Shown one piece after another: positions 15,313 to 33,977 of a DNA stretch of 64,000 nucleotides. The position numbers were made by a program, and so were the translations under genes. Location of the stretch: positions 372,001-436,000 of the forward strand of contig NZ_CADFEB010000007.1 in NCBI RefSeq assembly GCF_902833085.1. The letters run 5' to 3'. This DNA comes from Burkholderia ubonensis (GTDB lineage: Bacteria; Pseudomonadota; Gammaproteobacteria; Burkholderiales; Burkholderiaceae). The notes beneath the pieces were generated by a model, which saw only the letters and a list, made by a program, of their open reading frames with translations, was not told the DNA's origin and searched no databases. Position 1 is the first letter of the stretch. The number at the start of each line of letters is the position of its first letter.

Positions 15313-17310
<1,998 letters not shown>

Positions 17311-17469
17311 GCAGCACGTCGGGGCCGGTCGCCGGTCGGCGCGGGCCCTGACCATCCCTGACAGTCCGGCGGCCGGAAGTCCGCTAGACTGGCGGTTAGC
17401 GCGCAGCGCCCGAATGGGGCGCGGCCGCGCGCGACACTGCGACCCTCCAACTTCCCATCCTCGCCGACG

Positions 17470-18612
17470 ATGACGTCTCCTGTCCTGAACGGCCTGCGCA
17501 TCGGCATCACGATCGGCCTGCGCGCCCCCGACGAAAGCCTGTGGATCAACGGCATCAAGCAGAACGCGCTGTTTCTCGCGAAGCTGCTGATGGCGTCGCC
17601 GCACGGCTACCGCGTGACGCTCGTCAACACCACCGACGTGCCGCTGACCGATGCGCTGCCGTGGGATCGCGCGGTGTACGACACGCGCGCGTTCGCGGAC
17701 GCGAAGGACTCGCTCGACGTGCTGATCGAGCTCGGCGGGCAGATCGACGCCGCGCAGACCACGTACCTGAAGGCGCGTGGCGCGAAGCTCGTCAGCTATT
17801 GCTGCGGCGTCGAGTACATCAACGCGATGGAGTCGATGCTGTTCGGCCGCCGGCTGTGGGATTCGCTCTTCATCAACCGCGGCTTCGACGAGGTGTGGGC
17901 GATCCCGCAGATCGCGCCGTCGTCGCTGCCGTTCCTGCAGTCGCTGCGCCGCTGCCCGGGGCGCGTCGTGCCGTTCGTCTGGGATCCGATGTTCCTGGCC
18001 GAGCGCGCCGGCACGCTGCCCGGGCACGGCGAATACCGGCCGAGCGGCGCGAGCGCGAAGCGGCTCACGGTGATGGAGCCGAACCACAACGTCGTGAAGT
18101 TCTGCGTGTATCCGCTGCTGATCATCGACGAGGCGTATCGCCGCGAGCCGGACGCGATCGCGTTCACGCACGTGACGAACGCGGACCGTCTCGCGCGCGA
18201 GAGCCAGGAGTTCGTGATGCTGATGAACTACCTGGAGGTCGTGCGCGCCGGCAAGGCGAGTTTCGTCGGCCGCTTCGATACGCCGGTGTTCCTGTCCGAG
18301 CTGACCGACGTCGTCGTGTCGCACCAGTGGGAAAACCCGCTCAACTACTTCTACTTCGACGTGTGCTGGCAGGGCTATCCGCTCGTGCACAACGCGAGCC
18401 TCGCGCCCGATCTCGGCTACTACTACCCGGACAACGACGTGCAGCAGGGCGCTGACGCGCTGCTGCGCGCGCTGCACACGCACGACGACGACTGGGAAGG
18501 GTATGCGTTGCGCCAGCGCGAGATCCTGCGGCGCTATACGTCCGCGAACCCGGCGCTCGTCGCCGAGTACGACGCGCTGCTTGCACAATTGATTGGCGCG
18601 ACGGCGGCGTAG
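17470..18612 (+). CDS. DUF2827 family protein (putative glycosyltransferase-like), plus-strand copy
   Basis: A 380-residue paralogue of the three minus-strand genes at 20363-23843. Shared motifs are DESLWINGIKQNALFLAKLL near residue 20, LDVLIELGGQ near residue 80, a VVPFVWDPMF segment, VMEPNHNVVKF, and VVSHQWENPLNYFYFDVCWQ followed by GYPLVHNASLAPDLGYYYPD. The layout, with an acidic EPN motif and late HN/D clusters, suggests a GT-B-type glycosyltransferase. DUF2827 has no proven reaction that I know. It lies 159 bases after liuD and probably has its own promoter. Its role may be linked to the adhesin locus downstream. Confidence 0.8.
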   Translation: MTSPVLNGLRIGITIGLRAPDESLWINGIKQNALFLAKLLMASPHGYRVTLVNTTDVPLTDALPWDRAVYDTRAFADAKDSLDVLIELGGQIDAAQTTYLKARGAKLVSYCCGVEYINAMESMLFGRRLWDSLFINRGFDEVWAIPQIAPSSLPFLQSLRRCPGRVVPFVWDPMFLAERAGTLPGHGEYRPSGASAKRLTVMEPNHNVVKFCVYPLLIIDEAYRREPDAIAFTHVTNADRLARESQEFVMLMNYLEVVRAGKASFVGRFDTPVFLSELTDVVVSHQWENPLNYFYFDVCWQGYPLVHNASLAPDLGYYYPDNDVQQGADALLRALHTHDDDWEGYALRQREILRRYTSANPALVAEYDALLAQLIGATAA

Positions 18613-18636
18613 CAGCGTCGCGGGAGCAAAAAAAAA

Positions 18637-18660
18637 CCGCCGAAGTGGGGACTTCGGCGG
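18637..18660 (-). terminator. Hairpin with T-run in the minus-strand direction
   Basis: A perfect nine-pair stem (CCGCCGAAG / CTTCGGCGG) with a six-base loop. On the plus strand it is preceded by nine A residues and is not followed by T residues. The intrinsic-terminator form therefore exists only for minus-strand transcription, although the nearest gene (ending at 18612) is on the plus strand. The stem alone may still protect the 3' end of the plus-strand DUF2827 mRNA. Confidence 0.6.
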
Positions 18661-19082
18661 CTTGCAAGGCACAAAGATGACGGATCCGGGGTGGTCCGTC
18701 GGAATTGATTTTAATGTTAACTATCTTGTAAGACTGTTAAAGACAGTCAGTTTTAATTGCCGGTGTGTGATGAATTGATAATCCGGAAAATCAACCTTCA
18801 TTGAAAATCATAATGAACGAATGGTTGATTCTCCGGGCCTGGTCGAGCCGCACGGCGTGCGTGATTTCAATTCATATGTTCATATGAATAAAGCGCGATC
18901 CGGAGAGCCGAATAATAAGATATCTCGGCTTTCATTTATGTAATTTCAATATCGTTAACAGTATTCGAATTTGCTTGTATCTAGAATGGCTTCCGGGTGC
19001 GGGAGGGTTCTTTTTCATTCTCCCGCGTTTATTGTGACGAATGGGCCGGTTCGCGCGGCTCGACGTTTTCCGGAGCGCCGGA
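18661..19082. other. AT-rich regulatory region before the EAL gene
   Basis: About 420 bases of much lower GC than its surroundings, with no credible gene. It holds a long imperfect inverted repeat: CCGGAAAATCAACC from 18783, whose mate GGTTGATTCTCCGG ends near 18837, with CATT/AATG pairs inside. A perfect palindrome lies at 18870-18889. This is probably the promoter region of the EAL gene. Confidence 0.5.
18870..18889. promoter_or_regulatory. Perfect 20-bp palindrome upstream of the EAL gene
   Basis: ATTCATATGTTCATATGAAT has nine-base arms around a TT centre with no mismatch. It is about 190 bases before the EAL gene start. Its size fits a dimeric helix-turn-helix regulator. The regulator is unknown. 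Confidence 0.5.
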
Positions 19083-19883
19083 ATGAATGTGGTCGACGCT
19101 CGCCTCGAGGCGCAGATGCAAGAGAATCATGACGACGCCGGCCAGCTGTTCGAGCCGACCGCCGCTCATCCCGACCCCGTCGCGGTATGCCGCTTCATCG
19201 AGCGCCGGCTCGCGTTTGCGCGCGAGCCCGTCTGCAGGACCGACCTGTCGGGCGGCGTGCTCTACCGCGAATGCCTCGCGCGCCTCGCACGCGGGCAGCG
19301 CGACGTGTTGCGGCCCGTTGCGTTCCTGCCGGGTCTCGTATCGATGGGGCTGATGCGCTGGTTCGACCAGCTCGTGGTCAGCCGGACGATCGACAGCCTG
19401 CGCGCCGATGCGCAAGCCGTCTACGGCTGCAACGTATCGGCATCGAGCGCGACGGAAGACGCGCAGTGGCAGACGATCTTCGAGCGGCTCCGCGTCGAGC
19501 CGGCGGTCGCGCAGCGGCTGGTGCTCGAGATCACGGAAACCGCGCCGCTGGACCCGCTATCCGGTCGTGCGTTCGTCCATCAGGTGCGGCAGACCGGCTG
19601 CCGGATTGCGATCGACGATTTCGGCGCGGGCCACAGCGCGCACAACCATTTCGTGGTCGGCCGTCCGGACATCGTGAAGCTGGACCGGTCGATGCTGGCG
19701 ATGATCCGGGACAACGCGGTCGGCCGGTATCAGGTGCGCCGGCTGGTGGCGCTGACGCACGAGAACGCGGGGCACGTCGTCGTCGAAGGCGTGGAGACCG
19801 AGCTCGATCGGCAGATGTCGATCGACGCCGGCGTCCGGTGGGCGCAGGGCGATCACTTTTCCCGGCGTTCGGATGGCGCGTGA
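19083..19883 (+). CDS. EAL-domain protein (putative c-di-GMP phosphodiesterase), divergent motif
   Basis: A 266-residue stand-alone EAL domain that would hydrolyse c-di-GMP. The signature Glu is in YRECLARL (E63), so the motif reads ECL instead of EAL. The other metal and catalytic positions look intact: Asn of NVSASS, Glu of LEITET, the two Asp of IDDFGAGHS, Lys of DIVKLDRSM, Glu of VVEGVET, Gln of WAQGD. Activity is therefore plausible. There is no GGDEF, sensor or membrane segment. The ATG at 19083 is preferred because GGAG lies seven bases upstream; an in-frame ATG at 19041 has no such site. The stop overlaps the next gene (TGATG). Confidence 0.8.
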   Translation: MNVVDARLEAQMQENHDDAGQLFEPTAAHPDPVAVCRFIERRLAFAREPVCRTDLSGGVLYRECLARLARGQRDVLRPVAFLPGLVSMGLMRWFDQLVVSRTIDSLRADAQAVYGCNVSASSATEDAQWQTIFERLRVEPAVAQRLVLEITETAPLDPLSGRAFVHQVRQTGCRIAIDDFGAGHSAHNHFVVGRPDIVKLDRSMLAMIRDNAVGRYQVRRLVALTHENAGHVVVEGVETELDRQMSIDAGVRWAQGDHFSRRSDGA

Positions 19884-20335
19884 TGAGATCCGCTCGACGC
19901 GATGAAGCCGGGCGGGCTGACGTAGTCTTGAGAGGTGGGGCGGCCGTGGACGCACACAGCAGGATGGCGATGAAGCGCGAGCCGGCGGCGATCCGGGAGG
20001 TGGCGGCCATTCTCGTCCGCCTGAGCACGGGGTCGGCCGGCCGGCAGGTCGACATGATCCGCTACTTCGACGGCCTGGAGGCGGTCGCGCGCCGCATCGC
20101 GGCGGCGCGCCTGCCGGATTCGGCCAGCCGCGAACTGGCGGCCCGCTATTACTGCGCGGGGATTCTGACGAGCGTGTACGGGCGCGAATCGGCGATTGCG
20201 CACGGCATCGCCGGCAGCCTCGAGCAACAGGTGAACGGCCGCGCATCGCGGCGCATCTTCGCGTTGCTGATGCGCGCCGGGCGCAAGCAGGGGCAGGCGT
20301 TCATGGACGCGTGCGGGCATCTCGTTCGCGGGTAG
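19883..20335 (+). CDS. Hypothetical protein coupled to the EAL gene
   Basis: A 150-residue protein I do not recognise. Its ATG overlaps the EAL gene stop (TGATG), so it is translationally coupled and probably acts with the EAL protein. It is basic at both ends. The middle looks helical (REVAAILVRLSTGS, YFDGLEAVARRIAAARL, HGIAGSLEQQVNG) and there is no signal peptide or membrane segment. A partner or regulator of the EAL domain is possible. Confidence 0.6.
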   Translation: MRSARRDEAGRADVVLRGGAAVDAHSRMAMKREPAAIREVAAILVRLSTGSAGRQVDMIRYFDGLEAVARRIAAARLPDSASRELAARYYCAGILTSVYGRESAIAHGIAGSLEQQVNGRASRRIFALLMRAGRKQGQAFMDACGHLVRG

Positions 20336-20362
20336 CGCTTCCCGAGTTCCCGCATTCCCGCG

Positions 20363-21499
20363 TCAGCCGATCGCGCGGTCGCCGAACAGCTGCAGGATCT
20401 GCTCCGAATGCGCGCGGACGTTGTGCTCCGCCAGCGCATCGACGCCGGCCAGGTATTGCCGGGCCGCCCGCGCGTAGTCGTCGAGCCGCGCATCGTGGGT
20501 CTGCGCGGCGGTGGCGATCGCCCGCGCCGCGTCGAAGATGTCGAAGTCCGCGTAGTAGTAGCCGACGTCGCGCAGGAACGGCGAGTTGTGCACCAGCGGG
20601 TAGTTGCCGTACAGCGCGTCGTAGAGCAGGTAGTTCAGGCCGTTTTCCCAATGGTGCGACACGACGATGTCGGTGTGGTGCGCGGCCCATGCGACGAACG
20701 GCGCGCGCACGTCGGCGGTCGCCTTGCCGTCGCGGACCATTTCCAGCCCGAGCGCGAGATGCTTGAAGGCGGCGTTTTCCTTCTTGTCGAACGTATTGGT
20801 CATGTAGACGTGCTCGACCAGCTCCGGATGGGCGACGTAGCACGCGTTCGCCGCGAGCATCGGCACGACCGCGCTCTTGACGACGTTGAGGTTCGGCTCG
20901 AAGAACGCGATGCGCTTTGCAGGCCCGTGGTTCCGGTAGCCGAAACGCGCCTTCAGCTCGGGATCGGCGTCGAGGCTGCGCTCGATGAAGTACGGCGACC
21001 AGATGTGCGGCAGCACGAACACGGGCGCGCGGTAGACCGCCTGGAAATAGGCCGCGCAGGTGTGCGCATGCTGCGGGTTGGTCCAGATCTCGTCGAACTG
21101 CACGCGATGCGGGTTGGGCCGCCAGTCGTTCTTCCCGAAGGTGATCGTTTCGACCGCGATCACGTAGTCGTTGCCGAAACGGTACGACACGCACTTGCCG
21201 CCGCGCTGACGGACCGCGTCCGCATGGCTCGGATGAATGAACGCGTTCATCTCGATCAGCAGGTCGGTCTGGTGGACGATCGCCGACAGCGGCCGCAGCG
21301 CGTCGCGGAATTCGCTCATCATCAGCGCTTCCGGATAGTCGGCGATGCCGTCGTCGTGCGCGAGCCAGACGTCGCCGACGAGCGGCGACTGCTTCAGCAG
21401 CATGTATAGGTACACGCAGTGCTGGTTCGCGCCGTTGTACCAGATCGACTGCGCCGCGTCGCGCTGCACGTTGATCGTTATCGCGACATTGATCTTCAT
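20363..21499 (-). CDS. DUF2827 family protein (putative glycosyltransferase-like), copy C
   Basis: A 378-residue member of the DUF2827 family and the last gene of the minus-strand cluster. Family motifs: AQSIWYNGANQHCVYLYMLL near residue 18, LLIEMNAFIHP, GKCVSYRFGNDYVI, LPHIWSPYFIER, FFEPNLNVVKS, and VVSHHWENGLNYLLYDALYG followed by YPLVHNSPFLRDVGYYYADFD. It has no signal peptide or membrane segment and should act in the cytoplasm. It follows copy B by 23 bases. Sequence differences among the copies suggest different sugar or acceptor preferences rather than recent duplication. Catalysis is inferred. Confidence 0.8.
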   Translation of the reverse strand: MKINVAITINVQRDAAQSIWYNGANQHCVYLYMLLKQSPLVGDVWLAHDDGIADYPEALMMSEFRDALRPLSAIVHQTDLLIEMNAFIHPSHADAVRQRGGKCVSYRFGNDYVIAVETITFGKNDWRPNPHRVQFDEIWTNPQHAHTCAAYFQAVYRAPVFVLPHIWSPYFIERSLDADPELKARFGYRNHGPAKRIAFFEPNLNVVKSAVVPMLAANACYVAHPELVEHVYMTNTFDKKENAAFKHLALGLEMVRDGKATADVRAPFVAWAAHHTDIVVSHHWENGLNYLLYDALYGNYPLVHNSPFLRDVGYYYADFDIFDAARAIATAAQTHDARLDDYARAARQYLAGVDALAEHNVRAHSEQILQLFGDRAIG

Positions 21500-21522
21500 G
21501 TCGGTTCTCCGTCGGCGGCGCG

Positions 21523-22677
21523 TCAGGCGTCGCGATAGAGCGACGCGATCGCGTCGGTATACGCGGCGACGTTGTCCGGGTTGTAGATGCTGACCGAATC
21601 GAGCACGCGCTTCGAGCGCTCGCGGTACGCGTCGAGGTTCGCGTCGTGCTCCGCGAACGCCTGCAGCAGCGCGCGGCCGCCGGCCTGGCAGTCGAAGTCC
21701 GGATAGAAATACCCGGCATCGCCGAGGAACGGCGAGTTGTGGATCAACGGATAGTCGCCGTACAGCAGTTCGTAATACAGATAGTTCTGCGCGTTTTCCC
21801 ACGTGTGCGACACCACCGCGTCGCCGAACGCCGCCATGAACTCGTATACCGCGTAGCGGCTCTCGAACGTCGTGAGGCCGTGATCGACGATGTCGAGGCG
21901 CTTCGCGAAGTGGACGAAGGTCGTGTGGTCCTTCAGGTGCAGCGTGTTGCACACGCGCACGATCTCCAGAAAGTCCGGCTGCGCGCGATACGCTTCCTCG
22001 GCCACAAGCATCGGGATGATGCTCGTCTTCACCATGCAGATGTTCGGCTCGAACATCGTCACGCGCCAGCGCGGTTTGCCGGGCTGGTAGCCGAACGACA
22101 AACCGGCGCCGAGCGTCGCGCGCGCCTTGTCGAACAGCATCGGATGCCAGATGTGCGGGACGATCGTCACCGGCGCGCGCAGGCCCGTCTGGTAATAGTG
22201 CAGGCACGAGCGCTCGAATTCGGGAATCGTCCACACCGCGTCGTACGGCGCGCCGGAGAACAGGAAGCCCGACGGCTTGTTGAACATCGCGCGCTCGATG
22301 TCGATCACGTAGTCGTTGCCGACCCGCATCGTCACCACCTTGCCGCCGCGCTCGCGGAACGCGCGCAGGTAATCGGCGTTGAACTGCGCGCTCATCTCGA
22401 TCAGCACGTCGCAGCGCTGCATCGCCTCTTCCATCGACAGGAGCGGCACGTTCCATTCGCCGAGCATCATCTGCGGATCGGCGACCTGTTCGCCGCCGTT
22501 CACCATCACCGCTTCCGCGACGAGCGGCGATTGCCGCAGCAGCAGGATCAGCAGCAGGCAGTTCTGGAAGATGCCGTTTTCCCACAGCGACTGGCCGGCG
22601 CCGCGCACGAACAGCGAGACCCCGACGACGAGACGCTTGCCCTCACCGGGCGCTTGACGGGCTTTGGAGTCCGACAT
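21523..22677 (-). CDS. DUF2827 family protein (putative glycosyltransferase-like), copy B
   Basis: A 384-residue DUF2827 protein. Motifs: AGQSLWENGIFQNCLLLILL, VLIEMSAQFN, VVTMRVGNDYVIDIERAMF, VPHIWHPMLFDK, MFEPNICMVKTSIIPML, and VVSHTWENAQNYLYYELLYG followed by YPLIHNSPFLGDAGYFYPDFD. It lies 14 bases after copy A and 23 bases before copy C, so the three form one transcription unit downstream of the OmpA-like lipoprotein and the adhesin. Expected in the cytoplasm. Confidence 0.8.
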   Translation of the reverse strand: MSDSKARQAPGEGKRLVVGVSLFVRGAGQSLWENGIFQNCLLLILLLRQSPLVAEAVMVNGGEQVADPQMMLGEWNVPLLSMEEAMQRCDVLIEMSAQFNADYLRAFRERGGKVVTMRVGNDYVIDIERAMFNKPSGFLFSGAPYDAVWTIPEFERSCLHYYQTGLRAPVTIVPHIWHPMLFDKARATLGAGLSFGYQPGKPRWRVTMFEPNICMVKTSIIPMLVAEEAYRAQPDFLEIVRVCNTLHLKDHTTFVHFAKRLDIVDHGLTTFESRYAVYEFMAAFGDAVVSHTWENAQNYLYYELLYGDYPLIHNSPFLGDAGYFYPDFDCQAGGRALLQAFAEHDANLDAYRERSKRVLDSVSIYNPDNVAAYTDAIASLYRDA

Positions 22678-22691
22678 GCGTTTGCTCCGGT

Positions 22692-23843
22692 TCAGGCGAC
22701 CAGACGCGCGACGAACGCGTCGAGGTTCGCGGGGTTGTCGATCGAGACCGACTTCAGCAGCCGGTCGGCCTTCGCGCGGTAGTCGTCGAGCCGCGCGTCG
22801 TGATGCTGCCATGCGTCGAGCAGCGCGCGGCCGCCCGCCGCCGCATCGAAATCCGGGTAGTAGTAGCCGGCGTCGCCGAGCAGCGTCGAGTTGTGGATCA
22901 GCGGATAGCCGCCGTACAGCACGTCGTAGTACAGATAGTTCTGCGGGTTTTCCCAGTGATGGGAGACGACCGCGTCCGCGTGGCGCGCCATGAAGCCGGG
23001 CAGGTCGATGCGCGGCTCGAAGGTCGCCTTGTGCTCGCGCACGAGGTCGAGGCTGTTCGCGAAGTGCAGGAAGGTCGGGTGCTCCTTCAGGTGCATCGAA
23101 TTGACGACGAACAGGTGCTCGACCGCTTCCGGCCGCGCACGATAGAGCTCCTCGCACGCGAGCATCGGGATATGGCAGGTCTTCACGACCGAGATGTTCG
23201 GCTCGAGCGTCGCGAGACGCCACGCGGCGCGGCCGGGCTGGTAGCCGAACGTCGCGCCTTCGCTCGCGAGCGCGGCGATGCGCCGGTCGAGGAAGTACGG
23301 CGACCAGATATGCGGGATCGTGTAGACCGGCGCGCGCGTGAGCGTGCGCAGCAGCGGCACGTCGATCGTTTTCGACTTTTCCAGCACCCACACTTCGTCG
23401 AACGGCGCGCCGTTGAAGATGTGCCCGGACGGCTTCTCGAAGATCGGCGTTTCGGCGAGGCCGCTGTAGGTATGGCCGACGAAGCACGCGATGCGCTTCT
23501 TGCCGAGCGCCTGCATGTGCTTGAGCCATTCGACCGGCAGCTGCGCGCCCATCTCGATCACGACGTCGAGTGCGTGCGTGACGTCGTTCGGCTGCACGAG
23601 CGGTATGTCGAGGCCGTCGAGGTCGAGCCCGGCGGGCAGCGCGCGCGCGTCGCCGCCGTTCAGGAAGTAGACGGGGCCGACGCGGTCGGAGCGCTTCAGC
23701 ATCATCGCGAGGTACGCGATGTTCTGGTGGATGCCGTTTTCCCAGATCGCCTGGCCGTCTCGCGCGAACAGCGAGATGCCGACGGCCGGGCGTTCGTTGC
23801 GGGCGCCGCGCGAGGCGGCTTGATTGATGTCCGTCACCAGCAA
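22692..23843 (-). CDS. DUF2827 family protein (putative glycosyltransferase-like), copy A
   Basis: A 383-residue DUF2827 protein, first of the three tandem copies. Motifs: GQAIWENGIHQNIAYLAMML, VVIEMGAQLPVEWLKHMQAL, IPHIWSPYFLDRR, TLEPNISVVKTCHIPML, VVSHHWENPQNYLYYDVLYG and YPLIHNSTLLGDAGYYYPDFD. The Trp-Glu-Asn and Tyr-Pro-Leu-His-Asn blocks are almost invariant across all four copies in the window, marking the likely active or nucleotide-sugar site. The 430 bases before it may hold a separate promoter. Confidence 0.8.
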   Translation of the reverse strand: MLVTDINQAASRGARNERPAVGISLFARDGQAIWENGIHQNIAYLAMMLKRSDRVGPVYFLNGGDARALPAGLDLDGLDIPLVQPNDVTHALDVVIEMGAQLPVEWLKHMQALGKKRIACFVGHTYSGLAETPIFEKPSGHIFNGAPFDEVWVLEKSKTIDVPLLRTLTRAPVYTIPHIWSPYFLDRRIAALASEGATFGYQPGRAAWRLATLEPNISVVKTCHIPMLACEELYRARPEAVEHLFVVNSMHLKEHPTFLHFANSLDLVREHKATFEPRIDLPGFMARHADAVVSHHWENPQNYLYYDVLYGGYPLIHNSTLLGDAGYYYPDFDAAAGGRALLDAWQHHDARLDDYRAKADRLLKSVSIDNPANLDAFVARLVA

Positions 23844-24191
23844 AATTCCTGTGCGGCGCCGCGGGTCCGGCGGCGTCGAACGCCGACGCGCGGACCCGGC
23901 GGGCCGGTGGTTGTCACGTGTGCGCCTGCGGCGGCGCGGCCCGCGGAAACGGGCCGGACGGCGCGGATGGCGACATGGGCGGCCAACGCCGGTTCGACGC
24001 GTTGTCGCGTTCTGCCGGGCCGGCCGCCAGCGGCGATTGTGGCACGGAAATCGCCGGTTTGTGGAGTCGGGGCGGCCCTGACGAAGGCCGACGCGTTACC
24101 GATTGCTGCCAATCGGTATGACAGCCGGCATGACGGCCGGGGAAGATCCGCGCGGCAGCCCGCGAGCGGCCCGGGTTCCGTCGTGCGTATT

Positions 24192-24246
24192 CCGAAACAT
24201 CGCCGAAACATCGCCGAAAAATCGCCGAAACTTCACCGAAACATCG
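24192..24246. repeat. Five tandem copies of an 11-bp unit
   Basis: The unit CCGAAACATCG occurs five times in a row, copies 1, 2 and 5 exact, copy 3 with one change (ccgaaaaatcg) and copy 4 with two (ccgaaacttca). The period of 11 is close to one DNA helical turn. It lies just after the OmpA-like lipoprotein stop and about 350 bases before DUF2827 copy A. The rest of the 23844-24273 gap shows no gene. Confidence 0.75.
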
Positions 24247-24273
24247 GCACGGGTGGCGCGCGACGCAGCGGGT

Positions 24274-24948
24274 TCAGCGTTCCAGCGAGATCTCGACGCG
24301 CCGGTTGCTCGCGCGTCCTTCCGCCGTGGCGTTGGAGGCGACCGGATCGGCGCTGCCGCGCCCCGTCACGGCCAAGGTGCCGGCGTTCAGGCCATGCGAC
24401 TTCAGATAGCCGGCGACGGCTTGCGCGCGCCGCTGCGACAGCGCGAGATTGGACGCGTCGCCGCCGACCGAATCCGTGTAGCCCGTGACCGACACACGCG
24501 TAAACGCCGTATTGCCCTGCCTGGCCAGCAGTGCGTCGAGCGACGCGCGGGCGGTCGGCGTGAGCGTCGCCAGCCCGGTGGCGAACAGCGCGTCGCCCGC
24601 GAGATTCACATGTTCGACGGGGGCGGGCGCCGCTGCCGCGGGCGACGACGCCGGCGCCGGCGCAGCGGCTTCCGGCGCGCCGCACTGGAACACCAGCGTA
24701 GCCGGGTCGGCATGGTCGCGCAGCGCTTTCGCGGCATCGACCGTGCGCACCGGCTGGTCGCCGCAGAGGTGTTGTGCGGCCTTCATGCAGGTGTTCGGGC
24801 CGGAGAAGATTCCGTGGCAGTCGACCTGGTAAGTGCGCACGCCGTCGCGCGGCTGCAGCTCGGATGCGCTGAACGTCGGGCCGGATGCGCTGGAGCATGC
24901 GGCGAGGGCTATCGCGGAAAGCGCGAGCACGAAAGAGAGTTTGTTCAC
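24274..24948 (-). CDS. OmpA-family lipoprotein in the adhesin locus
   Basis: A 224-residue lipoprotein. The start is a GTG (VNKLSFVLALSAIALAACSS) with AGGA upstream; the in-frame ATG at 25059 would overlap the adhesin stop and bury the signal. The lipobox is LAAC, Cys at about residue 18. An N-terminal module with two extra Cys pairs (YQVDCHGIFSGPNTCMKAAQHLCGD) is followed by an Ala/Pro linker and a C-terminal OmpA-like peptidoglycan-binding domain (VTGYTDSVGGDASNLALSQRRAQAV, GRGSADPVASN, NRRVEISLER). It follows the adhesin by 101 bases. A role in placing the adhesin in the envelope is inferred. Confidence 0.85.
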   Translation of the reverse strand: MNKLSFVLALSAIALAACSSASGPTFSASELQPRDGVRTYQVDCHGIFSGPNTCMKAAQHLCGDQPVRTVDAAKALRDHADPATLVFQCGAPEAAAPAPASSPAAAAPAPVEHVNLAGDALFATGLATLTPTARASLDALLARQGNTAFTRVSVTGYTDSVGGDASNLALSQRRAQAVAGYLKSHGLNAGTLAVTGRGSADPVASNATAEGRASNRRVEISLER

Positions 24949-25049
24949 GGTGATGTCCTGAATGCGGTCGTTGACGGAAGCGCGCTGCGTCGATCGGGCG
25001 GCGCGGCGGGCCGGGCGCTGACGATTGCGCCCGGCCCGCGCGGCGCGGG

Positions 25050-28000
25050 TTATTTCCACTGATACAGCATGCCTGCGCCGATCACCTTCTGACCGCCGCT
25101 GAAGCCGCCGTTGATCGACGCCTTCAGGTTCTCGGTGATCCGCGCCTGCATGTTGACCGCCATCGCCTTCTGGCCGAGGAACGTCGACGTGCCGACACCC
25201 ATCCCGAAGTTGGCGTCGCGGTCGAGCTGCGGGATCGACGCCATCGCGCCGACGGCCGCGATACCCTGCTTCGCCATCTGGTCGGTCTGCTGCAGTTGCG
25301 AACCGAGGCTGTTGATCTGCGCCTGCTGGCCCGACAGCGCCGTCGACATCGTCGACTGCACCGCGTTGAGCTGGTTGACGTTGACCGCATCGGTGCCTTG
25401 CGTGCCCGGCGCGACGTTGACGATCTGGCGCTGCTGCGTGTCGTTGCCGACCGAGACGACGTTCGAGCGGCCGCCGTCGGTCGAATTCGCGCCGATCGCC
25501 ACCGAGTTCGAGCCGGCGGTGACGGTCGGACGATCCGTGCCGGTGCCGTTCATGTCGGCCGAGATGCCGTTCGTGTTCACCGTGCGCGTCGTGTTGTTGT
25601 TCAGCGTCGTCGACAGCTCGTTCAGCGTGTTGTTGATGTTCGTCACGCCGGTCGACAGCGACGCCACGGTGCTGTTCGTCGTGCTGAGGCCCGTCGACAG
25701 CGAGCCGATGCCGGTCGAGGTCGACGTCGACAGCGACGTGAGGTTGCTGTTGGTCGACGACAGGCCGGTCGACAGCGAGCTGATGCTGGTCGACGTCGAC
25801 GTGGACAGCGAAGCGACCGTGCTGTTGGTCGAGCTCAGGCCGGTGGACAGCGAACTGATCCCGGTCGACAGCGAACCGATGCTCGTCGACGTTGCCGTCG
25901 ACAGGCTGTTGACGGCCTGGTTCGTCGCGTTGAGCTGGCTGCCGTTGATCGCGTCCGTGCTGGTGGCCGAGACGCGGCCTGCAGCAACGTTGGTGATCTG
26001 TCGTTCCGCGCCCGGCGCGCCGACGCTCACGACGCTCGTCGGCGAGCTGCCCGCGAAGAAGTACGTGACGCCGCCGATCGTCGTGCTCGACGTCGGGTTC
26101 GCGGCGGACGTGACGGAGCCCGTGCCGAGCGCGACGTCGTTGAGGTTGTTCGCGACCGCGTTCGAGCCGAACGCGAGCGACCCGGCGCCGGCCGCGGTCG
26201 CCGTGTTGCCGAGGGCGAGCGAGCCGTTGCCCGTCGCCGTGTTGGCGTTGCCGATCGCCAGCGCGCCGTCGCCGGTGGCCGTATTGTTCGCGCCGAGCGC
26301 GACCGCGCCGGTGCCGGTGGCCACGTTCGGATCGCCGATCGCGACCGCGCCGTCGCCGCTCGCCGTGTTCGCGACGCCGATCGATACCGCCTTGCCGCCC
26401 GTCGCCGACGCGTTCTGGCCGATGGCGACCGCGCCGTTCGACGACGCGTTCGCGCCGTCGCCGACCGCGACGCTGCTCGCGCCCGATGCGGAGGCGTTCG
26501 TGCCGGCCGCGATGGCGTTGACGCCCGTTGCGCCGTCGTTGTTGTAGTTGGCCTGCTGCGTGCCGTTGTCGTTGACGCTGTAGTAGTGCGTCTTCGCGGC
26601 CTGGATCGCGGTCGAGGTCGAGGTGGACAGCGACGTGAGGTTGCTGTTGGTCGTGCTCAAGCCGGTCGACAGCGAGCCGATGCCGCTCGACGTGGAGGTC
26701 GACAGCGATGCGACGGTGCTGTCGGTCGTGCTCAGGCCGGTGGACAAGGAGTTGATGCCGGTCGAGGTCGACGTGGACAGCGATGCGACGGTGCTGTTGG
26801 TCGTGCTGAGGCCGGTGGACAGGGAGCCGATGCCGGTCGAGGTCGACGTGGACAGCGATGCGACGGTGCTGTTGGTCGTGCTGAGGCCGGTGGACAGGGA
26901 GCCGATGCCGGTCGAGGTCGAGGTGGACAGCGATGCGACGGTGCTGTTGGTCGTGCTCAGGCCGGTGGACAGCGAGCCGATGCCGGTCGAAGTCGACGTG
27001 GACAGCGATGCGATCGAGCTGGTTGCCGACGAGATACCCGTCGACGTGGAGGTCGACAGCGACGCGACGGAACTGTCGGTCGAGCTCAGGCCGGTCGACA
27101 GCGAGTTGATGCCCGTCGAGGTCGACGTGGACAGCGACGCGATCGAGCTGGTTGCCGTCGAAATTCCGGTCGACGTCGAGGTCGACAGGGACGCGACGGA
27201 GCTATCGGTCGAGCTCAGGCCCGTCGACAGTGAGTTGATGCCCGTCGAGGTTGACGTCGAGAGCGAAGCAATCGAGCTGGTCGCCGTCGAGATGCCGGTC
27301 GATGTGGAGGTCGACAGGGACGCGACGGAGCTATCGGTCGAACTCAGGCCCGTCGACAGCGAGCTGATGCCCGTCGAGGTCGACGTCGAGAGCGACGCAA
27401 TCGAGCTGGTTGCCGACGAAATGCCGGTCGACGTCGAGGTCGACAGCGAGGCGACGGAGCTGTCCGTGGAGCTCAGGCCAGTCGACAGTGAGCTGATGCC
27501 GGTCGAGGTGGACGTGGACAGCGAGGCAACGGAGCTGTTGGTCGTGCTCAGGCCGGTCGACAGTGAGTTGATGCCCGTCGAGGTGGACGTCGAGAGCGAC
27601 GCGATCGAGCTGGTTGCCGTCGAGATGCCCGTCGACGTGGACGTCGACAGGGAAGCGACCGAGCTATCGGTCGAGCTCAGACCGGTGGACAGCGAACTGA
27701 TACCGGTCGAAGTCGACGTGGACAGCGACGCGATCGAGCTGGTCGCCGTCGAGATGCCGGTCGATGTGGAGGTCGACAGGGACGCGACGGAGCTATCGGT
27801 CGAGCTCAGACCCGTCGACAGCGAGCTGATGCCGGTCGAAGTCGACGTGGACAGCGACGCGATCGAGCTGGTCGCCGACGAAATGCCCGTCGATGTGGAA
27901 GTCGACAGGGACGCGACGGAGCTATCGGTCGAACTCAGGCCCGTCGACAGCGAGCTGATGCCCGTCGAGGTCGAGGTGGAGAGCGATGCGATCGAGCTGG

Positions 28001-31000
28001 TCGCCGTCGAAATGCCGGTCGACGTGGAGGTCGACAGGGACGCGACGGAGCTATCGGTCGAGCTCAGGCCCGTCGACAGTGAGTTGATGCCGGTCGAAGT
28101 CGACGTGGACAGCGACGCGATCGAGCTGGTCGCCGACGAAATGCCCGTCGATGTGGAAGTCGACAGGGAAGCGACGGAGCTATCGGTCGAGCTCAGACCC
28201 GTCGACAGCGAGCTGATGCCCGTCGAGGTCGACGTGGAGAGCGATGCGATCGAGCTAGTCGCCGTCGAAATGCCAGTCGACGTGGAGGTCGACAGCGACG
28301 CGACGGAGCTATCGGTCGAACTCAGACCCGTCGACAGCGAGCTGATGCCCGTCGAGGTCGACGTGGACAGCGACGCGATCGAGCTGGTGGCCGTCGAAAT
28401 GCCGGTCGACGTGGAGGTCGACAGCGAAGCGACGGAGCTATCGGTCGAACTCAGACCGGTGGACAGTGAACTGATACCGGTCGAAGTCGACGTGGACAGC
28501 GACGCAACGGAGCTGTTGGTCGAACTCAGTCCGGTGGACAGCGAATTGACGCCACTTTGCGCGGTGCTGATGCCGGTCGACGTGGAGGTTGACAGGGAAG
28601 CGACGGAGCTGTCGGTCGAGCTCAGACCGGTGGACAGCGAGCTGATACCGGTCGAGGTCGACGTGGACAGCGACGCAATCGAGCTGGTGGCCGTCGAAAT
28701 GCCCGTCGATGTGGAGGTCGACAGGGAAGCGACGGAGCTGTCGGTCGAGCTCAGGCCCGTCGACAGTGAGCTGATGCCGGTCGAAGTCGACGTGGACAGC
28801 GACGCAACGGAGCTGTTGGTCGAACTCAGACCGGTGGACAGCGAATTGACGCCGCTTTGCGCGGTGCTGATGCCGGTCGATGTGGAAGTCGACAGGGACG
28901 CGACGGAGCTATCGGTCGAGCTCAGGCCCGTCGACAGCGAGCTGATGCCCGTCGAGGTCGACGTCGAGAGCGACGCAATCGAGCTGGTTGCCGACGAAAT
29001 GCCGGTCGACGTGGAAGTCGACAGCGAGGTCACGCTGCTATCCGTCGTCGAGAGTCCGGTCGACAGCGACGCAATCGCGCTGTCGGACGACGACAGTGTC
29101 GAGGACAGCGATGCGACGGTACTGTTCGTGCTCGACAGGCCGGTGGACAGCGAGCCGATGCCGGTCGAAGTCGACGTGGACAGCGACGTGATGCTCGAAT
29201 CGGTCGTGCTCGCGACGGCGTAGAGCTGGCTGCCGTTGATTGCGTCCGTGCTGGACGACGTGATCCGGCCGGCTGCCACGTTGGTGATCTGACGTTCAGC
29301 CCCTGCGCTGCCGACGCTCACGACGCTCGATGGCGTGGCGCCGGCGAAGTTGCCGTACGTCGTCGAGCCGATAGTGGCGCTGCTGGTCGGGTTCGCGGCT
29401 GCCGTCACGGAGCCGGACCCGAGTGCGACATCGCCGGCATTGTTCGCGACGGCGTTCGGTCCGATCGCGACGGAGTTGGTGCCCAGAGCCTGGCTGTCCG
29501 GCGCGGTGGAATTCGCGTGGAAGTACTTGATGCCCTGGCTGTTGATGTTGTCGATTGCCGCGCCGACGCTGTTGGCCGTGGACGTCGTGCCGTTGGCGTT
29601 GTACGTGGTGTACGACGGCGCGGAGATCGTGCCGGTTGCCGGGTTGTAGGTGGCGCCGCCGCCGAGTGCCGCGGCAGTACTGTTGCCGAGATTGTTGGTG
29701 GTGGTCGTTACCGTGCTCAGGCCGGTGGACAGCGAGCTGATGCCCGTCGAGGTCGATGTGGACAGCGAAGCGACGGAGCTGTTGGTCGAGCTGAGGCCCG
29801 TCGACAGGGAATTGACGCCGCTCTGCGCGGTGCTGATGCCCGTCGAAGTCGACGTGGAGAGCGAAGCGACCGAGCTGTTGGTCGAGCTGAGTCCCGTGGA
29901 CAGCGAGTTGACGCCGCTTTGCGCCGTGCTGATGCCGGTCGACGTGGAGGTCGACAGCGAAGCGACGGAGCTGTTGGTCGAGCTGAGGCCGGTCGACAGC
30001 GAATTGACACCGCTCTGTGCGGTGCTGATGCCCGTCGAAGTCGACGTGGACAGCGACACGACGGAGCTATTGGTCGAGCTGAGGCCGGTCGACAGCGAGT
30101 TGACGCCGCTTTGTGCGGTGCTGATACCGGTGGAGGTCGAGGTCGACAGCGAAGTGACAGAGCTATTGGTCGAGCTGAGGCCGGTCGACAGGGAATTGAC
30201 GCCGCTCTGCGCGGTGCTGATACCGGTGGAGGTCGAGGTCGACAGCGAAGTGACAGAGCTATTGGTCGAGCTGAGACCGGTCGACAGCGAATTGACACCG
30301 CTCTGCGCGGTGCTGATGCCCGTCGAAGTCGACGTGGACAGCGACACGACGGAGCTATCGGTCGAACTGAGTCCGGTCGACAGCGAGTTGACGCCGCTTT
30401 GTGCGGTGCTGATACCGGTGGAGGTCGAGGTCGACAGCGAAGTGACGGAGCTATTGGTCGAGCTGAGTCCGGTCGACAGGGAATTGACGCCGCTCTGCGC
30501 GGTGCTGATTCCGGTCGAGCTCGACGTCGAGAGCGAGGCGATCGAGCTGTTGGCCGACGAGATGCCGGTCGAAGCCGAAGTGGACAGCGAAGCGACAGAG
30601 CTGTTAGTCGAGCTGAGGCCGGTCGACAGGGAATTGACGCCGCTTTGCGCGGTGCTGATGCCCGTCGAACTCGACGTGGAGAGCGAGGCAACGGAGCTGT
30701 TGGTCGTGCTCAGTCCGGTGGACAGCGAACCGATGCCGGTCGAGGTCGAGGTGGAGAGCGATGCGATCGAGCTGTTGGCCGTCGAAATGCCGGTCGACGT
30801 GGAAGTCGACAGCGAAGCGACGGAGCTATCGGTCGAACTGAGTCCGGTCGACAGCGAATTGACGCCGCTCTGTGCGGTGCTGATGCCCGTCGAGGTCGAC
30901 GTGGACAGTGAAGCGACGGAGCTGTTGGTCGAGCTGAGGCCGGTCGACAGCGAATTGACACCGCTCTGCGCCGTGCTGATAGCTGTCGAAGCCGAAGTCG

Positions 31001-33977
31001 ACAGCGAGCTGATTCCAGTCGAACTCGACGTGGAGAGCGAGGCAATCGAGCTGTTGGCCGACGAGATGCCGGTCGAAGCCGAAGTGGACAGCGAAGCGAC
31101 GGAGCTATTGGTCGAGCTGAGGCCCGTCGACAGCGAATTGACGCCGCTTTGCGCAGTGCTGATTCCAGTCGAGCTCGACGTGGAGAGCGATGTGATCGAG
31201 CTGTTGGCCGACGAGATGCCCGTCGAAGTCGAGGTCGACAGCGAAGCGACGGAGCTGTTGGTCGAGCTGAGGCCCGTCGACAGCGAACTGACGCCCGTCG
31301 ACAGTGAAGAAATCGCGGACGAACTCGAGCTCAGGCCGGTCGACAGCGAGCCGACGGCGGTCGAGGTCGACGTCGACAGCGTGTTGATCGCGGTATTGGT
31401 TGCGTAGAGCTGCGAACCGTTGATCGCGTCCGTGCTGGTGGCGGAAATTCGTCCGGCCGCGACGTTCGTGACCTGGCGCTCGGCGCCGGCTGCGCCGACG
31501 CTGACGACGCTGCTCGGCGTTGTGCCGGCGAACGAATAGGTCGTGCCGCCGACCGTGCCGGTGGCAGTCGGATTCGCGGCCGCGGTGACGGAGCCGCTGC
31601 CGAGCGCGACGTCGCCGGCATTGTTCGCAACCGCGTTCGGGCCGATCGCGACGGAGTTGGTGCCGAGGGCCTGGCTGTCCGGCGCGGTGGAATTCGCGTG
31701 GAAGTACTTGATGCCCTGGCTGTTGATGTTGTTGATCGCCGAGCCGACGTTGTTCGCGGTGGTCGTCGTGCCGTTCGCGTTGTACGTGGTATACGACGGG
31801 GCCGAGATCGTGCCGGTTGCCGGGTTGTACGTTGCGCCGCCGCCGAGCGCAGCGGCAGTGCTGTTGCCGAGGTTGTTGGTGTTGGTCGTCACCGAGCTCA
31901 GGCCGGTGGACAGCGAGCTGATGCCGGTCGAGGTCGACGTGGAGAGCGAGGCGATTGCGCTGTTGGCCGACGAGATGCCGGTCGATGCAGACGTCGACAA
32001 CGAAGTGACCGTGCTATTGGTGGTCGACAGGCCGGTGGACAGCGAGTTGACGCCACTCTGTGCGGTGCTGATGCCGGTCGATGCAGACGTCGACAGCGAA
32101 GTGACCGTGCTATTGGTGGTCGACAGGCCGGTGGACAGCGAGTTGACGCCACTCTGTGCGGTGCTGATGCCGGTCGATGCAGACGTCGACAGCGAAGTGA
32201 CCGTGCTGTTGGTGGTCGACAGGCCAGTGGACAGCGAATTGACGCCGCTTTGCGCGGTGCTGATACCGGTCGACGCGGAGGTCGACAGCGACGTCACCGT
32301 GCTGTTCGTCGTGCTCAGCCCGGTCGACAGTGAGCCGATCCCGGTCGAGGTCGACGTGGAAAGTGATGCAATCGAGCTGTTGGCCGACGAAATGCCGGTC
32401 GACGTGGACGTGGACAAACTGGCGATGCTCGACGTCGTCGTGCTGGCGACCGCGTAAAGCTGGCTGCCGTTGATCGCATCCGTGCTGGCCGCACCGACGA
32501 GGCCGGCGGCGACGTTCTGGATGCGGCGTTCCGAGCCGGGCACGCCGACACTGACCACACCGTTCGCCGCGCTCGCGCCGGCGTAGGTGCCGAACGTCTG
32601 AGTGCCGATCGTGGTGCTGCTGACCGTCCCGGTGCCGCCGGTTGCCGTCGTCGCGGTGGCGCTCGTCACCGAGCCGTTGCCGAGTGCAACCGAGTTCGCG
32701 ACGTTTGCCGTCGAGTTGACACCGAGCGCCAGTGCATTGGTGGCTGTTGCGCTGGACCCTTGCGCAATCGCGACGGATCCGGTGCCGGACGCGTTGGCGT
32801 TTGCGCCCAATGCGGTCGCGTACGAATTCGAAGCCACGCTGCTCGAGCCCAGCGCTACGGAGCCTGCCGTCCCGCTCGCGGTCGAGCCGTTGCCGAGCGC
32901 CACGGCATCCGAGCCGGAGGCGAGGGCCTTGGCGCCGAAGCTCCCGCTGTTGCCGATCGCGATCGATCCAGTGCCGTTCGACGTCACCGAGTTGCCGATT
33001 GCAACCGAGCCGTTCGTGCCCGTGGCGACTGCGGTGCTGCCGATCGCGACAGAGCTGCCGTTCGACGTGGTGGCGTTGCCGATCGCCACGGCGCCCGTGC
33101 CGGTCGCCGAGTTCGCATTGCCGAGCGCGACGGCGCCCTGGCCATTCGACGTGTTGTTCGCGCCGATCGCCAGCGCGCCCGTGCCGATTGCGCTGTTCGG
33201 ATCGCCGATCGCGACCGCGCCGTCACCCGTTGCCGTCTGGCCGCGGCCGATCGCAACCGCGCCGCCGGCTGCCGTGCTGCTGTTGGCCGTCGTGCCGCTC
33301 GAGCCGATCGCAACGTTCTGGCCGGTCGCGCCGGACACGATGCCGTCACCCTGGGCGATGCCGAACGCACCGTTGACCGTCGCGCCGCGACCCACCGCAA
33401 TGCCGGAAGTTGCGGTCGACGCGACCGACGCCTGCAGGCCCGCGGCGACCGAGTTCACGCCCGCTGCGGTGGAGGAACTGCCGAGCGCGGTCGCTCCCGT
33501 TGCCGATGCCGTTGCATTGAAGCCGTACGCACTGCTGGATGTCCCTGAAGCGGTGGCAAAGCTGCCGACGGCGGTCGCGCCCTGCGCTGCCAGCGTACCC
33601 AGGCCGATCCCGACGGCGCCGTCACCCGACGCCGTTGCGAACGTACCGAACAATGTCACGCCGTTGAAGCCGACGCCGTAACCGCCCCCGTTGGCATTGC
33701 AACCTGCGACGTTCGACCAGGTGCCGCTGCCGTCGGCCGGGCCGGACGTCTCGACCGGAAGCGAATGACCGAGCACCGTTCCGGCGCCGCTATTGCAAGT
33801 GAGTGATCCAGTGTAGGTCGACGCATACCCGGCAGGTGCCAACGTTGCGAGCAGCAGGCTGACCAGAAGCTTGACCGAGGCCGAGCGTTTGCCCTTGCCG
33901 TGAGCCGAGTCGAGCTCCGATGCGGCAACCCAGGTGCCAAGCGATTCATTCCAGATCGAGCGGTATGCGCGGTTCAT
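25050..33977 (-). CDS. Giant trimeric autotransporter adhesin (YadA/Hep_Hag family)
   Basis: A 2975-residue trimeric surface adhesin (type Vc secretion). Residues 1-50 are an extended signal peptide (MNRAYRSIWNESLGTWVAAS) and hydrophobic core. About 50-460 is a head of YadA-like repeats (TAVGSFATASG, SVAIGNS). Three Ser/Thr/Leu-rich stalks lie at about 500-695, 860-1425 and 1585-2460, separated by two near-identical inserts with GIKYFHANSTAPDSQALGTN and necks. A second head lies at about 2465-2675. The last 95 residues (AVGAMASIPQLDRDANFGMG to the end) are the beta-barrel anchor. The ATG at 33977 has GGAGGT eight bases upstream; a TTG two codons earlier is less likely. Stalk Ser/Thr content is extreme. 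An OmpA-like lipoprotein and three DUF2827 genes follow on the same strand. Confidence 0.95.
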   Translation of the reverse strand: MNRAYRSIWNESLGTWVAASELDSAHGKGKRSASVKLLVSLLLATLAPAGYASTYTGSLTCNSGAGTVLGHSLPVETSGPADGSGTWSNVAGCNANGGGYGVGFNGVTLFGTFATASGDGAVGIGLGTLAAQGATAVGSFATASGTSSSAYGFNATASATGATALGSSSTAAGVNSVAAGLQASVASTATSGIAVGRGATVNGAFGIAQGDGIVSGATGQNVAIGSSGTTANSSTAAGGAVAIGRGQTATGDGAVAIGDPNSAIGTGALAIGANNTSNGQGAVALGNANSATGTGAVAIGNATTSNGSSVAIGSTAVATGTNGSVAIGNSVTSNGTGSIAIGNSGSFGAKALASGSDAVALGNGSTASGTAGSVALGSSSVASNSYATALGANANASGTGSVAIAQGSSATATNALALGVNSTANVANSVALGNGSVTSATATTATGGTGTVSSTTIGTQTFGTYAGASAANGVVSVGVPGSERRIQNVAAGLVGAASTDAINGSQLYAVASTTTSSIASLSTSTSTGISSANSSIASLSTSTSTGIGSLSTGLSTTNSTVTSLSTSASTGISTAQSGVNSLSTGLSTTNSTVTSLSTSASTGISTAQSGVNSLSTGLSTTNSTVTSLSTSASTGISTAQSGVNSLSTGLSTTNSTVTSLSTSASTGISSANSAIASLSTSTSTGISSLSTGLSSVTTNTNNLGNSTAAALGGGATYNPATGTISAPSYTTYNANGTTTTANNVGSAINNINSQGIKYFHANSTAPDSQALGTNSVAIGPNAVANNAGDVALGSGSVTAAANPTATGTVGGTTYSFAGTTPSSVVSVGAAGAERQVTNVAAGRISATSTDAINGSQLYATNTAINTLSTSTSTAVGSLSTGLSSSSSAISSLSTGVSSLSTGLSSTNSSVASLSTSTSTGISSANSSITSLSTSSSTGISTAQSGVNSLSTGLSSTNSSVASLSTSASTGISSANSSIASLSTSSSTGISSLSTSASTAISTAQSGVNSLSTGLSSTNSSVASLSTSTSTGISTAQSGVNSLSTGLSSTDSSVASLSTSTSTGISTANSSIASLSTSTSTGIGSLSTGLSTTNSSVASLSTSSSTGISTAQSGVNSLSTGLSSTNSSVASLSTSASTGISSANSSIASLSTSSSTGISTAQSGVNSLSTGLSSTNSSVTSLSTSTSTGISTAQSGVNSLSTGLSSTDSSVVSLSTSTSTGISTAQSGVNSLSTGLSSTNSSVTSLSTSTSTGISTAQSGVNSLSTGLSSTNSSVTSLSTSTSTGISTAQSGVNSLSTGLSSTNSSVVSLSTSTSTGISTAQSGVNSLSTGLSSTNSSVASLSTSTSTGISTAQSGVNSLSTGLSSTNSSVASLSTSTSTGISTAQSGVNSLSTGLSSTNSSVASLSTSTSTGISSLSTGLSTVTTTTNNLGNSTAAALGGGATYNPATGTISAPSYTTYNANGTTSTANSVGAAIDNINSQGIKYFHANSTAPDSQALGTNSVAIGPNAVANNAGDVALGSGSVTAAANPTSSATIGSTTYGNFAGATPSSVVSVGSAGAERQITNVAAGRITSSSTDAINGSQLYAVASTTDSSITSLSTSTSTGIGSLSTGLSSTNSTVASLSSTLSSSDSAIASLSTGLSTTDSSVTSLSTSTSTGISSATSSIASLSTSTSTGISSLSTGLSSTDSSVASLSTSTSTGISTAQSGVNSLSTGLSSTNSSVASLSTSTSTGISSLSTGLSSTDSSVASLSTSTSTGISTATSSIASLSTSTSTGISSLSTGLSSTDSSVASLSTSTSTGISTAQSGVNSLSTGLSSTNSSVASLSTSTSTGISSLSTGLSSTDSSVASLSTSTSTGISTATSSIASLSTSTSTGISSLSTGLSSTDSSVASLSTSTSTGISTATSSIASLSTSTSTGISSLSTGLSSTDSSVASLSTSTSTGISSATSSIASLSTSTSTGINSLSTGLSSTDSSVASLSTSTSTGISTATSSIASLSTSTSTGISSLSTGLSSTDSSVASLSTSTSTGISSATSSIASLSTSTSTGISSLSTGLSSTDSSVASLSTSTSTGISTATSSIASLSTSTSTGISSLSTGLSSTDSSVASLSTSTSTGISTATSSIASLSTSTSTGINSLSTGLSTTNSSVASLSTSTSTGISSLSTGLSSTDSSVASLSTSTSTGISSATSSIASLSTSTSTGISSLSTGLSSTDSSVASLSTSTSTGISTATSSIASLSTSTSTGINSLSTGLSSTDSSVASLSTSTSTGISTATSSIASLSTSTSTGINSLSTGLSSTDSSVASLSTSTSTGISSATSSIASLSTSTSTGIGSLSTGLSTTNSTVASLSTSTSTGIGSLSTGLSTTNSTVASLSTSTSTGIGSLSTGLSTTNSTVASLSTSTSTGINSLSTGLSTTDSTVASLSTSTSSGIGSLSTGLSTTNSNLTSLSTSTSTAIQAAKTHYYSVNDNGTQQANYNNDGATGVNAIAAGTNASASGASSVAVGDGANASSNGAVAIGQNASATGGKAVSIGVANTASGDGAVAIGDPNVATGTGAVALGANNTATGDGALAIGNANTATGNGSLALGNTATAAGAGSLAFGSNAVANNLNDVALGTGSVTSAANPTSSTTIGGVTYFFAGSSPTSVVSVGAPGAERQITNVAAGRVSATSTDAINGSQLNATNQAVNSLSTATSTSIGSLSTGISSLSTGLSSTNSTVASLSTSTSTSISSLSTGLSSTNSNLTSLSTSTSTGIGSLSTGLSTTNSTVASLSTGVTNINNTLNELSTTLNNNTTRTVNTNGISADMNGTGTDRPTVTAGSNSVAIGANSTDGGRSNVVSVGNDTQQRQIVNVAPGTQGTDAVNVNQLNAVQSTMSTALSGQQAQINSLGSQLQQTDQMAKQGIAAVGAMASIPQLDRDANFGMGVGTSTFLGQKAMAVNMQARITENLKASINGGFSGGQKVIGAGMLYQWK
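26600..29200 (-). repeat. Tandem repeats of the main adhesin stalk (129-bp period)
   Basis: The stalk DNA is a tandem array. For example, the segment beginning gctatcggtcga recurs at 27201 and 27330, exactly 129 bases (43 codons) apart. At protein level the unit is SSLSTGLSSTD + SSVASLSTSTSTGISTAT + SSIASLSTSTSTGI. Core positions are spaced 3,4,4 and 3,4, a mix of hendecads and heptads as in trimeric autotransporter coiled coils. A variant unit with TAQSGVNSLSTGLS dominates the stalk at about 29720-31290. Copies differ mainly at synonymous sites. The array is open to slippage and recombination. Confidence 0.85.

Follow-up and report, generated by a model that had tools for sequence, protein, structure and literature searches.

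The SLST adhesin locus

We analyzed a window of 64,000 nucleotides from Burkholderia ubonensis (contig NZ_CADFEB010000007.1, positions 372,001 to 436,000), in which the gene for a trimeric autotransporter adhesin (TAA) lies close to four genes of DUF2827 (PF10933), a Pfam family without an assigned function. On the minus strand, the order is adhesin, OmpA-like lipoprotein, and DUF2827 A, B, and C, with gaps of 101, 430, 14, and 23 bases; D lies on the opposite strand. ORF coordinates and Pfam matches bear out the positions, strands, order, and gaps that the original prediction gave for these six genes. In window coordinates, the features are as follows.

17470-18612, plus strand: DUF2827 D (PF10933, E 9e-145)
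18634-18663, minus strand: terminator-like hairpin just beyond the end of D, 13 pairs and a T run
19041-19883, plus strand: EAL-domain gene between C and D (EAL match, 3e-40)
20363-21499, minus strand: DUF2827 C (PF10933, E 5e-109)
21523-22677, minus strand: DUF2827 B (PF10933, E 9e-160)
22692-23837 (GTG start) or to 23843 (TTG start), minus strand: DUF2827 A (PF10933, E 1e-159), start uncertain
24274-24948, minus strand: OmpA-like lipoprotein gene, 224 aa, GTG start
25050-33977, minus strand: TAA gene, 2,975 aa
25056-25232 (contig 397056-397232), minus strand: YadA_anchor, the C-terminal outer-membrane anchor of the adhesin (E 3.5e-16)
26595-29219, minus strand: SLST stalk stretch, residues 1587-2461 (875 residues), 63% Ser+Thr
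29649-31403, minus strand: SLST stalk stretch, residues 859-1443 (585 residues), 57% Ser+Thr
31830-32453, minus strand: SLST stalk stretch, residues 509-716 (208 residues), 55% Ser+Thr

A, B, C, and D are the only PF10933 matches listed for the whole 7.77 Mb genome, and the best match of A in a scan of named genomes comes from B. stagnalis (96%). Between the end of the adhesin gene and C, a terminator scan found one site, within B. Six terminator-like sites were found in 17300-25300, compared with 5.2 in shuffled sequences, and the hairpin at 18634-18663 has the longest stem of the six. An Rfam search of window positions 15000-36500 gave no match. From the sequence, we infer that the adhesin, the lipoprotein, A, B, and C would be cotranscribed. 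The EAL-domain protein, of the c-di-GMP phosphodiesterase family, is possibly part of the module.

The adhesin carries the domains that define a TAA: ESPR (3e-13), YadA_head, and YadA_stalk, together with the C-terminal YadA anchor. Ser (818) and Thr (526) make up 45% of its 2,975 residues, and the SLST motif occurs 117 times; domains and composition together confirm its earlier description as a giant Ser/Thr-rich adhesin. Lys, Arg, Asp, and Glu amount to ~3% and Asn to ~6%, and there are 24 Pro in the ~2,975 residues. In the part of the stalk that was scanned, residues 1951-2360 have a coiled-coil-like hydrophobic period of 3.6. By sequence, the adhesin looks to be of the same kind as BCAM2418 of B. 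cenocepacia, a serine-rich TAA whose repeats carry an SLST signature. The authors who described BCAM2418 suggest that its Ser/Thr repeats may be O-glycosylated (PMC7142374); the main text of that report has no mention of BCAM2417, BCAM2416, BCAM2415, or an operon.

PglL, the general glycosylation system of the Burkholderia periplasm, might modify the adhesin while DUF2827 does something else. Burkholderia PglL is described as favoring Ser, often flanked by Ala, but also as acting mainly in Ala/Pro-rich disordered regions (PMC8423747), whereas this adhesin has few prolines and a coiled-coil-like stalk. The terms "autotransporter," "adhesin," and "BCAM2418" are moreover absent from the main texts of the two glycoproteome studies consulted. 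We consider this account very improbable, and PglL as the sole explanation was set aside. The HMW1C/NGT N-glucosyltransferases are cytoplasmic enzymes that modify surface adhesins through N-linkage at Asn-X-Ser/Thr; they target Asn, whereas the window adhesin is rich in Ser and Thr.

The lipoprotein has an LAAC lipobox at its N terminus (by eye), and a relative is found in 29 of 38 Burkholderia-labeled loci. In Acinetobacter, the TAA AtaA has the peptidoglycan-binding partner TpgA, and TAA–TpgA-like pairs have been reported in Burkholderia, with no DUF2827 component mentioned in the available part of that report (PMC13082670). The window likewise has an OmpA-type peptidoglycan-binding gene adjoining a TAA gene; in contrast to TpgA, its product is a lipoprotein, and the only families that it matches are of the OmpA type, namely, the PA1041-family anchor lipoprotein (1e-33) and others, those listed lying below curated cut-offs. 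Sequence thus makes it a possible TpgA-like partner of the adhesin.

Predicted fold and conserved blocks of the DUF2827 proteins

A and D were modeled with AlphaFold2 (pLDDT 94, pTM 0.91-0.92), and the models gave 188 and 179 Foldseek matches, respectively, in the PDB at E<=1e-3. The GT-B enzymes HepE, BshA, MshA, and WaaG stand at the top of the lists, and glycogen synthase is also among the matches. Protein O-GlcNAc transferases and pneumococcal GtfA (4pqg) appear in the 50 listed matches of both models, and SdgB in those of D; of these, GtfA modifies serine-rich repeat (SRR) adhesins, while SD repeats are the substrate of SdgB. TM-scores are about 0.3-0.65 and E values reach down to 6e-11, with an rmsd over both domains of 5-15 Å in most rows, values as high as those for two-domain proteins that differ in state or are distantly related. 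Both models consist of two Rossmann-like domains that match solved GT-B enzymes. The GT-B likeness that had been proposed for the family is therefore found in A and D, which are predicted GT-B glycosyltransferases; B and C are predicted to share the fold by homology to A and D.

At the level of sequence, DUF2827 proteins match no named glycosyltransferase family. A PDB sequence search with DUF2827 profiles (37 and 56 sequences) found no chain beyond chance, and comparison with PHROGs likewise gave no matches beyond chance. The donor motif of the GT4 subfamily is EX7E, which is literally absent from the alignment; on visual inspection, the block has the form N-X7-D (WEN..NY..YD) instead, and we name GT4 for DUF2827 as a fold likeness only. 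Twelve columns are invariant over 56 aligned sequences and include residues of the WEN..NY, YPLxHN, and EPN..K blocks, and residues of these three blocks remain invariant from bacteria through phages. The original prediction had all four window proteins keeping WEN..NY, YPLxHN, and EPN..VVK; the third block is to be corrected for B, which reads EPNICMVK. The proteins had also been described as lacking a signal peptide, and a simple hydropathy scan indeed found no signal-like N-terminal stretch.

In a midpoint-rooted tree, read without support values, A, B, and D each group with members from several genera, so that one copy of each has been kept at a number of loci. C stands apart on a separate branch, joined in this tree by a single further sequence of the genus. 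The pattern suits a pathway with different steps better than it suits redundant copies.

A GT-B fold might also serve without sugar transfer, with the DUF2827 proteins acting as chaperones or targeting factors for the adhesin, as is suspected for BimC. The BimC gene lies just upstream of the TAA gene BimA, and BimC of B. thailandensis, which belongs to the bacterial autotransporter heptosyltransferase (BAHT) family, is reported to lack the glycosyltransferase activity predicted for it (PMC6439308). Such a role fits less well with the invariance of residues of three blocks from bacteria to phages and with the enrichment of linked TAAs in possible acceptor residues (see below). It also sits poorly with the distinct paralogues kept together in several genera, which suit successive reactions better than one chaperone role. 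We judge a noncatalytic function improbable.

The BAHT enzymes TibC and AAH are dedicated to Gram-negative autotransporters and have a GT-B-like catalytic domain (PMC4358343). DUF2827 genes often adjoin an autotransporter gene, on whose product the DUF2827 enzymes may act. However, the four-cysteine iron finger of BAHT is not conserved in DUF2827 (no alignment column exceeds 49% Cys), the secondary structure of the A and D models contains no counterpart of the N-terminal beta-barrel of TibC/AAH, and neither model has TibC among its 50 listed matches. BAHT is also a single enzyme, whereas DUF2827 has several paralogues per locus. Membership of DUF2827 in BAHT was set aside.

SRR adhesin genes are adjoined by genes for GT-B transferases (GtfA/GtfB), in a system that also includes accessory Sec. 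Here too, an adhesin with Ser-rich repeats is adjacent to transferases that are GT-B by predicted fold, and GtfA (4pqg) is a structural match of the DUF2827 models. By sequence, however, DUF2827 does not match the GtfA/GtfB families, and the SRR substrate, whose Ser-rich repeats are modified inside the cell (PMC7948813), is a Gram-positive surface protein, whereas here it would be a trimeric autotransporter.

Linkage of DUF2827 genes to Ser/Thr-rich adhesins

Of 65 genomes in the genus of the window, 62 encode DUF2827 (one of them, G003, by a single weak match only), as do 86 of 299 genomes, in 11 of 25 genera, of a family sample and 6 of 398 genomes of a phylum sample, the window's own genome included. 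Within the genus, G041 and G052 have no DUF2827 and no YadA anchor listed, G003 has only fragments of both, and G016, without DUF2827, keeps TAAs of ordinary composition. For gene neighborhoods, we used the best 80 of 378 matched stretches in named genomes, some of which share one genome. A YadA anchor is present in 57 of these best 80 loci and an SLST-rich ORF without an anchor in 5 more, so that 62 have one or the other and 18 have neither in the stretch examined. The co-occurrence foreseen in the original prediction is thus found at most of these loci. With 87 anchors in 21 genomes of about 137 Mb, the chance expectation is ~0.013 anchors per 20 kb, or about 1%, and the linkage is ~50-fold over it. 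Anchors lie at DUF2827 loci of eight named genera, and the adhesin gene lies upstream of its DUF2827 neighbors in Burkholderia but downstream of them in Caballeronia. The idea that DUF2827 genes are chance or passenger neighbors with no functional tie to the adhesin can appeal to the 18 loci without a TAA, but the strength of the linkage, the occurrence of both relative orders, the spread over eight genera, and the presence of a TAA at four of four plasmid loci opened make it scarcely credible.

The 18 loci are of several kinds. In three from Burkholderia, the stretch begins no more than 2.2 kb from the first DUF2827 ORF; one (L174) is a 4.6 kb contig. The others are from Collimonas (6), Hydromonas-like genomes (3), Caballeronia-type pairs (2), Variovorax (2, of which L180 has an anchor-like remnant by eye), and a Spartobacterial MAG (1). 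The Collimonas and Hydromonas-like loci and the two Caballeronia-type pairs are real exceptions; some of the other loci are contig ends. The exceptions bear on the reading in which DUF2827 proteins are glycosyltransferases whose product, a glycan on the cell surface or secreted (LPS, capsule, or another glycoconjugate), acts together with the adhesin but is not bound to it. The Collimonas trios and Caballeronia-type pairs would suit it, as would the Hydromonas-like trios, which have no TAA and lie among other glycosyltransferase and methyltransferase genes. Against it, linked TAAs are specifically Ser/Thr-rich, a type not found in sampled DUF2827-negative relatives, phage relatives lie near fiber genes in two contigs opened (both below), and polysaccharide-assembly genes were not recognized among the annotated cluster proteins. 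We regard a separate glycan as unlikely.

Several of these neighborhoods have features of their own. The Collimonas trios at L165-L168, L170, and L171, and also L100, have no TAA; by eye, the neighbors at L165 and L100 resemble a penicillin-binding protein and pilMNOPQ, preceded at L100 by a small gene without a Pfam match. The Hydromonas-type trios at L172 (9983-19384) and L169 lie within a TAA-less cluster, and neighbors at L172 match GT34, GT7C, and methyltransferase families. The Spartobacterial MAG (L192, 9974-14152) has two DUF2827 genes, a GT2 gene, and, on the other strand from DUF2827, an ORF with Ser-rich repeats that no Pfam family matches. At L093 (14894-20000, genome G306), an SLST adhesin is apparently split by an insertion element, the ORFs between its two Ser/Thr-rich parts resembling an IS66-type transposase set by eye.

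The composition of TAAs differs with linkage. Using a TAA model built from Pfam-placed anchors and examining 61 of the 87 anchors, we found a median of 47% Ser+Thr in the passengers of linked TAAs (n = 14) versus 20% in unlinked ones from the same genomes (n = 46, reduced from 47 by leaving out L331, which has <200 residues; p = 4e-7). Within the genus, 11 linked TAAs (0.43-0.55) differ from 38 unlinked TAAs (median 0.21, three >0.35) with p = 2e-6, although the composition tests are not independent, since the genomes are related, and the p values overstate independence because most of the linked adhesins of the genus occupy a single common locus. There are exceptions in both directions: L330 is linked but Ser/Thr-poor (0.22), and L293 is unlinked but rich (0.53). 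In a second sample, limited to C-terminal pieces of <=500 residues and with several linked genes being fragments, linked TAAs were not different (6 versus 50, p = 0.26); it took 30 of 56 and 30 of 52 places, and passengers of <=100 residues (L363, L381, L394, and L407) were dropped. The 29 usable TAAs from DUF2827-negative relatives have Ser+Thr of 0.16-0.26. Among 16 hand-picked full ORFs (linked or of the same anchor type versus long ones), the 7 from DUF2827-positive genomes have 0.38-0.49 and the 9 from negative genomes 0.19-0.28. An anchor type ending in NASYRW, which is that of the linked Caballeronia adhesins, was present at 12 of 30 sampled places in DUF2827-positive genomes and at 0 of 30 in negative ones.

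DUF2827 matches were found in 18 plasmid records, some of which are second chromosomes by length. All four plasmid loci that were opened have a TAA and two or three DUF2827 genes. Three of these TAAs are annotated as YadA-like, and the fourth, a giant hypothetical protein, has a C terminus that reads like that of the window adhesin. An OmpA gene is present at three of the four loci and an EAL gene at one, on a B. glumae plasmid, where it follows the DUF2827 genes (L425, 10465-11301). Ser+Thr of the four TAAs is 0.29, 0.33, 0.27, and 0.47, the first at least being a partial ORF, so that only one (0.47) is as Ser/Thr-rich as the chromosomal TAAs. On a B. ambifaria plasmid typed as conjugative, the adhesin/OmpA/DUF2827 module adjoins a type VI secretion cluster (L426, 13555-19122).

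A scan of viral contigs (IMG/VR) yielded 69 loci (L204-L272), some on near-duplicate contigs, with DUF2827 relatives of 25-44% identity. Since a tblastn search with A gave no match in annotated phages, phage relatives are known from IMG/VR contigs only. In L219 (relative at 10004-11188) and L225 (9998-11173), collagen-like tail-fiber genes are next to the relative or a few genes off, and in L208, the relative lies near a tape-measure gene and a Mu gp36-like gene. An ORF of >=150 residues with >=25% Ser+Thr is listed in 28 of the 69 viral loci, a count from redundant contigs and a crude gene caller that excludes loci of >=60% GC. Among the twelve gene distances tabulated, the Ser/Thr-rich viral ORFs are only <=6 genes from the relative. 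As support for a link to fibers, the phage pattern is suggestive only. It allows a wider reading, to which we give rather less than even odds, that DUF2827 proteins are a new family of GT-B protein glycosyltransferases specialized on long, repetitive, homotrimeric fibers: bacterial paralogues (A, B, D, and, in some Burkholderia, C) would act in sequence to assemble a defined glycan on trimeric adhesins rich in Ser and Thr, and the single members of phages would modify Ser/Thr-rich collagen-like tail fibers.

A candidate O-glycosylation module

The predicted fold, the linkage, and the composition of linked TAAs suggest that the DUF2827 genes probably serve to coat Ser/Thr-rich adhesin stalks with sugar. 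We put at roughly two in three the probability that DUF2827 is a so far unrecognized GT-B glycosyltransferase family forming a dedicated cytoplasmic O-glycosylation module for the neighboring SLST adhesin. The adhesin would be made with a long ESPR signal, and before export, one DUF2827 enzyme would put the first sugar, from a nucleotide sugar, on Ser/Thr of the stalk repeats. The remaining members would extend or decorate the glycan, with about one enzyme per sugar. Export of the modified chain would run through Sec and the trimeric anchor, which would be tied to peptidoglycan by the OmpA-like lipoprotein. Catalysis by DUF2827, the donor sugar, the O-linkage, the cytoplasmic site, the order of action, and the role of the lipoprotein are steps that we infer. 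The need for a bulky glycan to get through the trimeric pore counts against this explanation.

The original prediction of an adhesin-glycosylation system is supported in part, by the GT-B likeness and the TAA linkage: of the three findings that it named as refuting, those on fold and on gene location were looked for, and it withstood both checks. Its claim to be the first Gram-negative counterpart of the SRR systems was too strong: TibC/AAH are already one (PMC4358343), and the suggested O-glycosylation of the BCAM2418 SLST repeats (PMC7142374) also came earlier. With the one known and the other suggested, DUF2827 would add a new family of enzymes to a type of system already known. A literature search of titles and abstract openings found no link between DUF2827 and adhesins; the TAA survey of Dorison et al. 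2026 (10.64898/2026.01.22.700529) lay outside its scope.

These results give a testable function to DUF2827, which nearly all sampled genomes of the genus carry (62 of 65), and provide candidate enzymes for a type of adhesin that had only been suggested to be O-glycosylated. If the proposal is true, Burkholderia-type bacteria would have a second route of protein O-glycosylation beside PglL, one that sits with its own substrate on some plasmids. The phage relatives near collagen-like fibers would point to glycosylated phage tail fibers, and glycosylation of the adhesin would account for the solubility of a nearly charge-free stalk.
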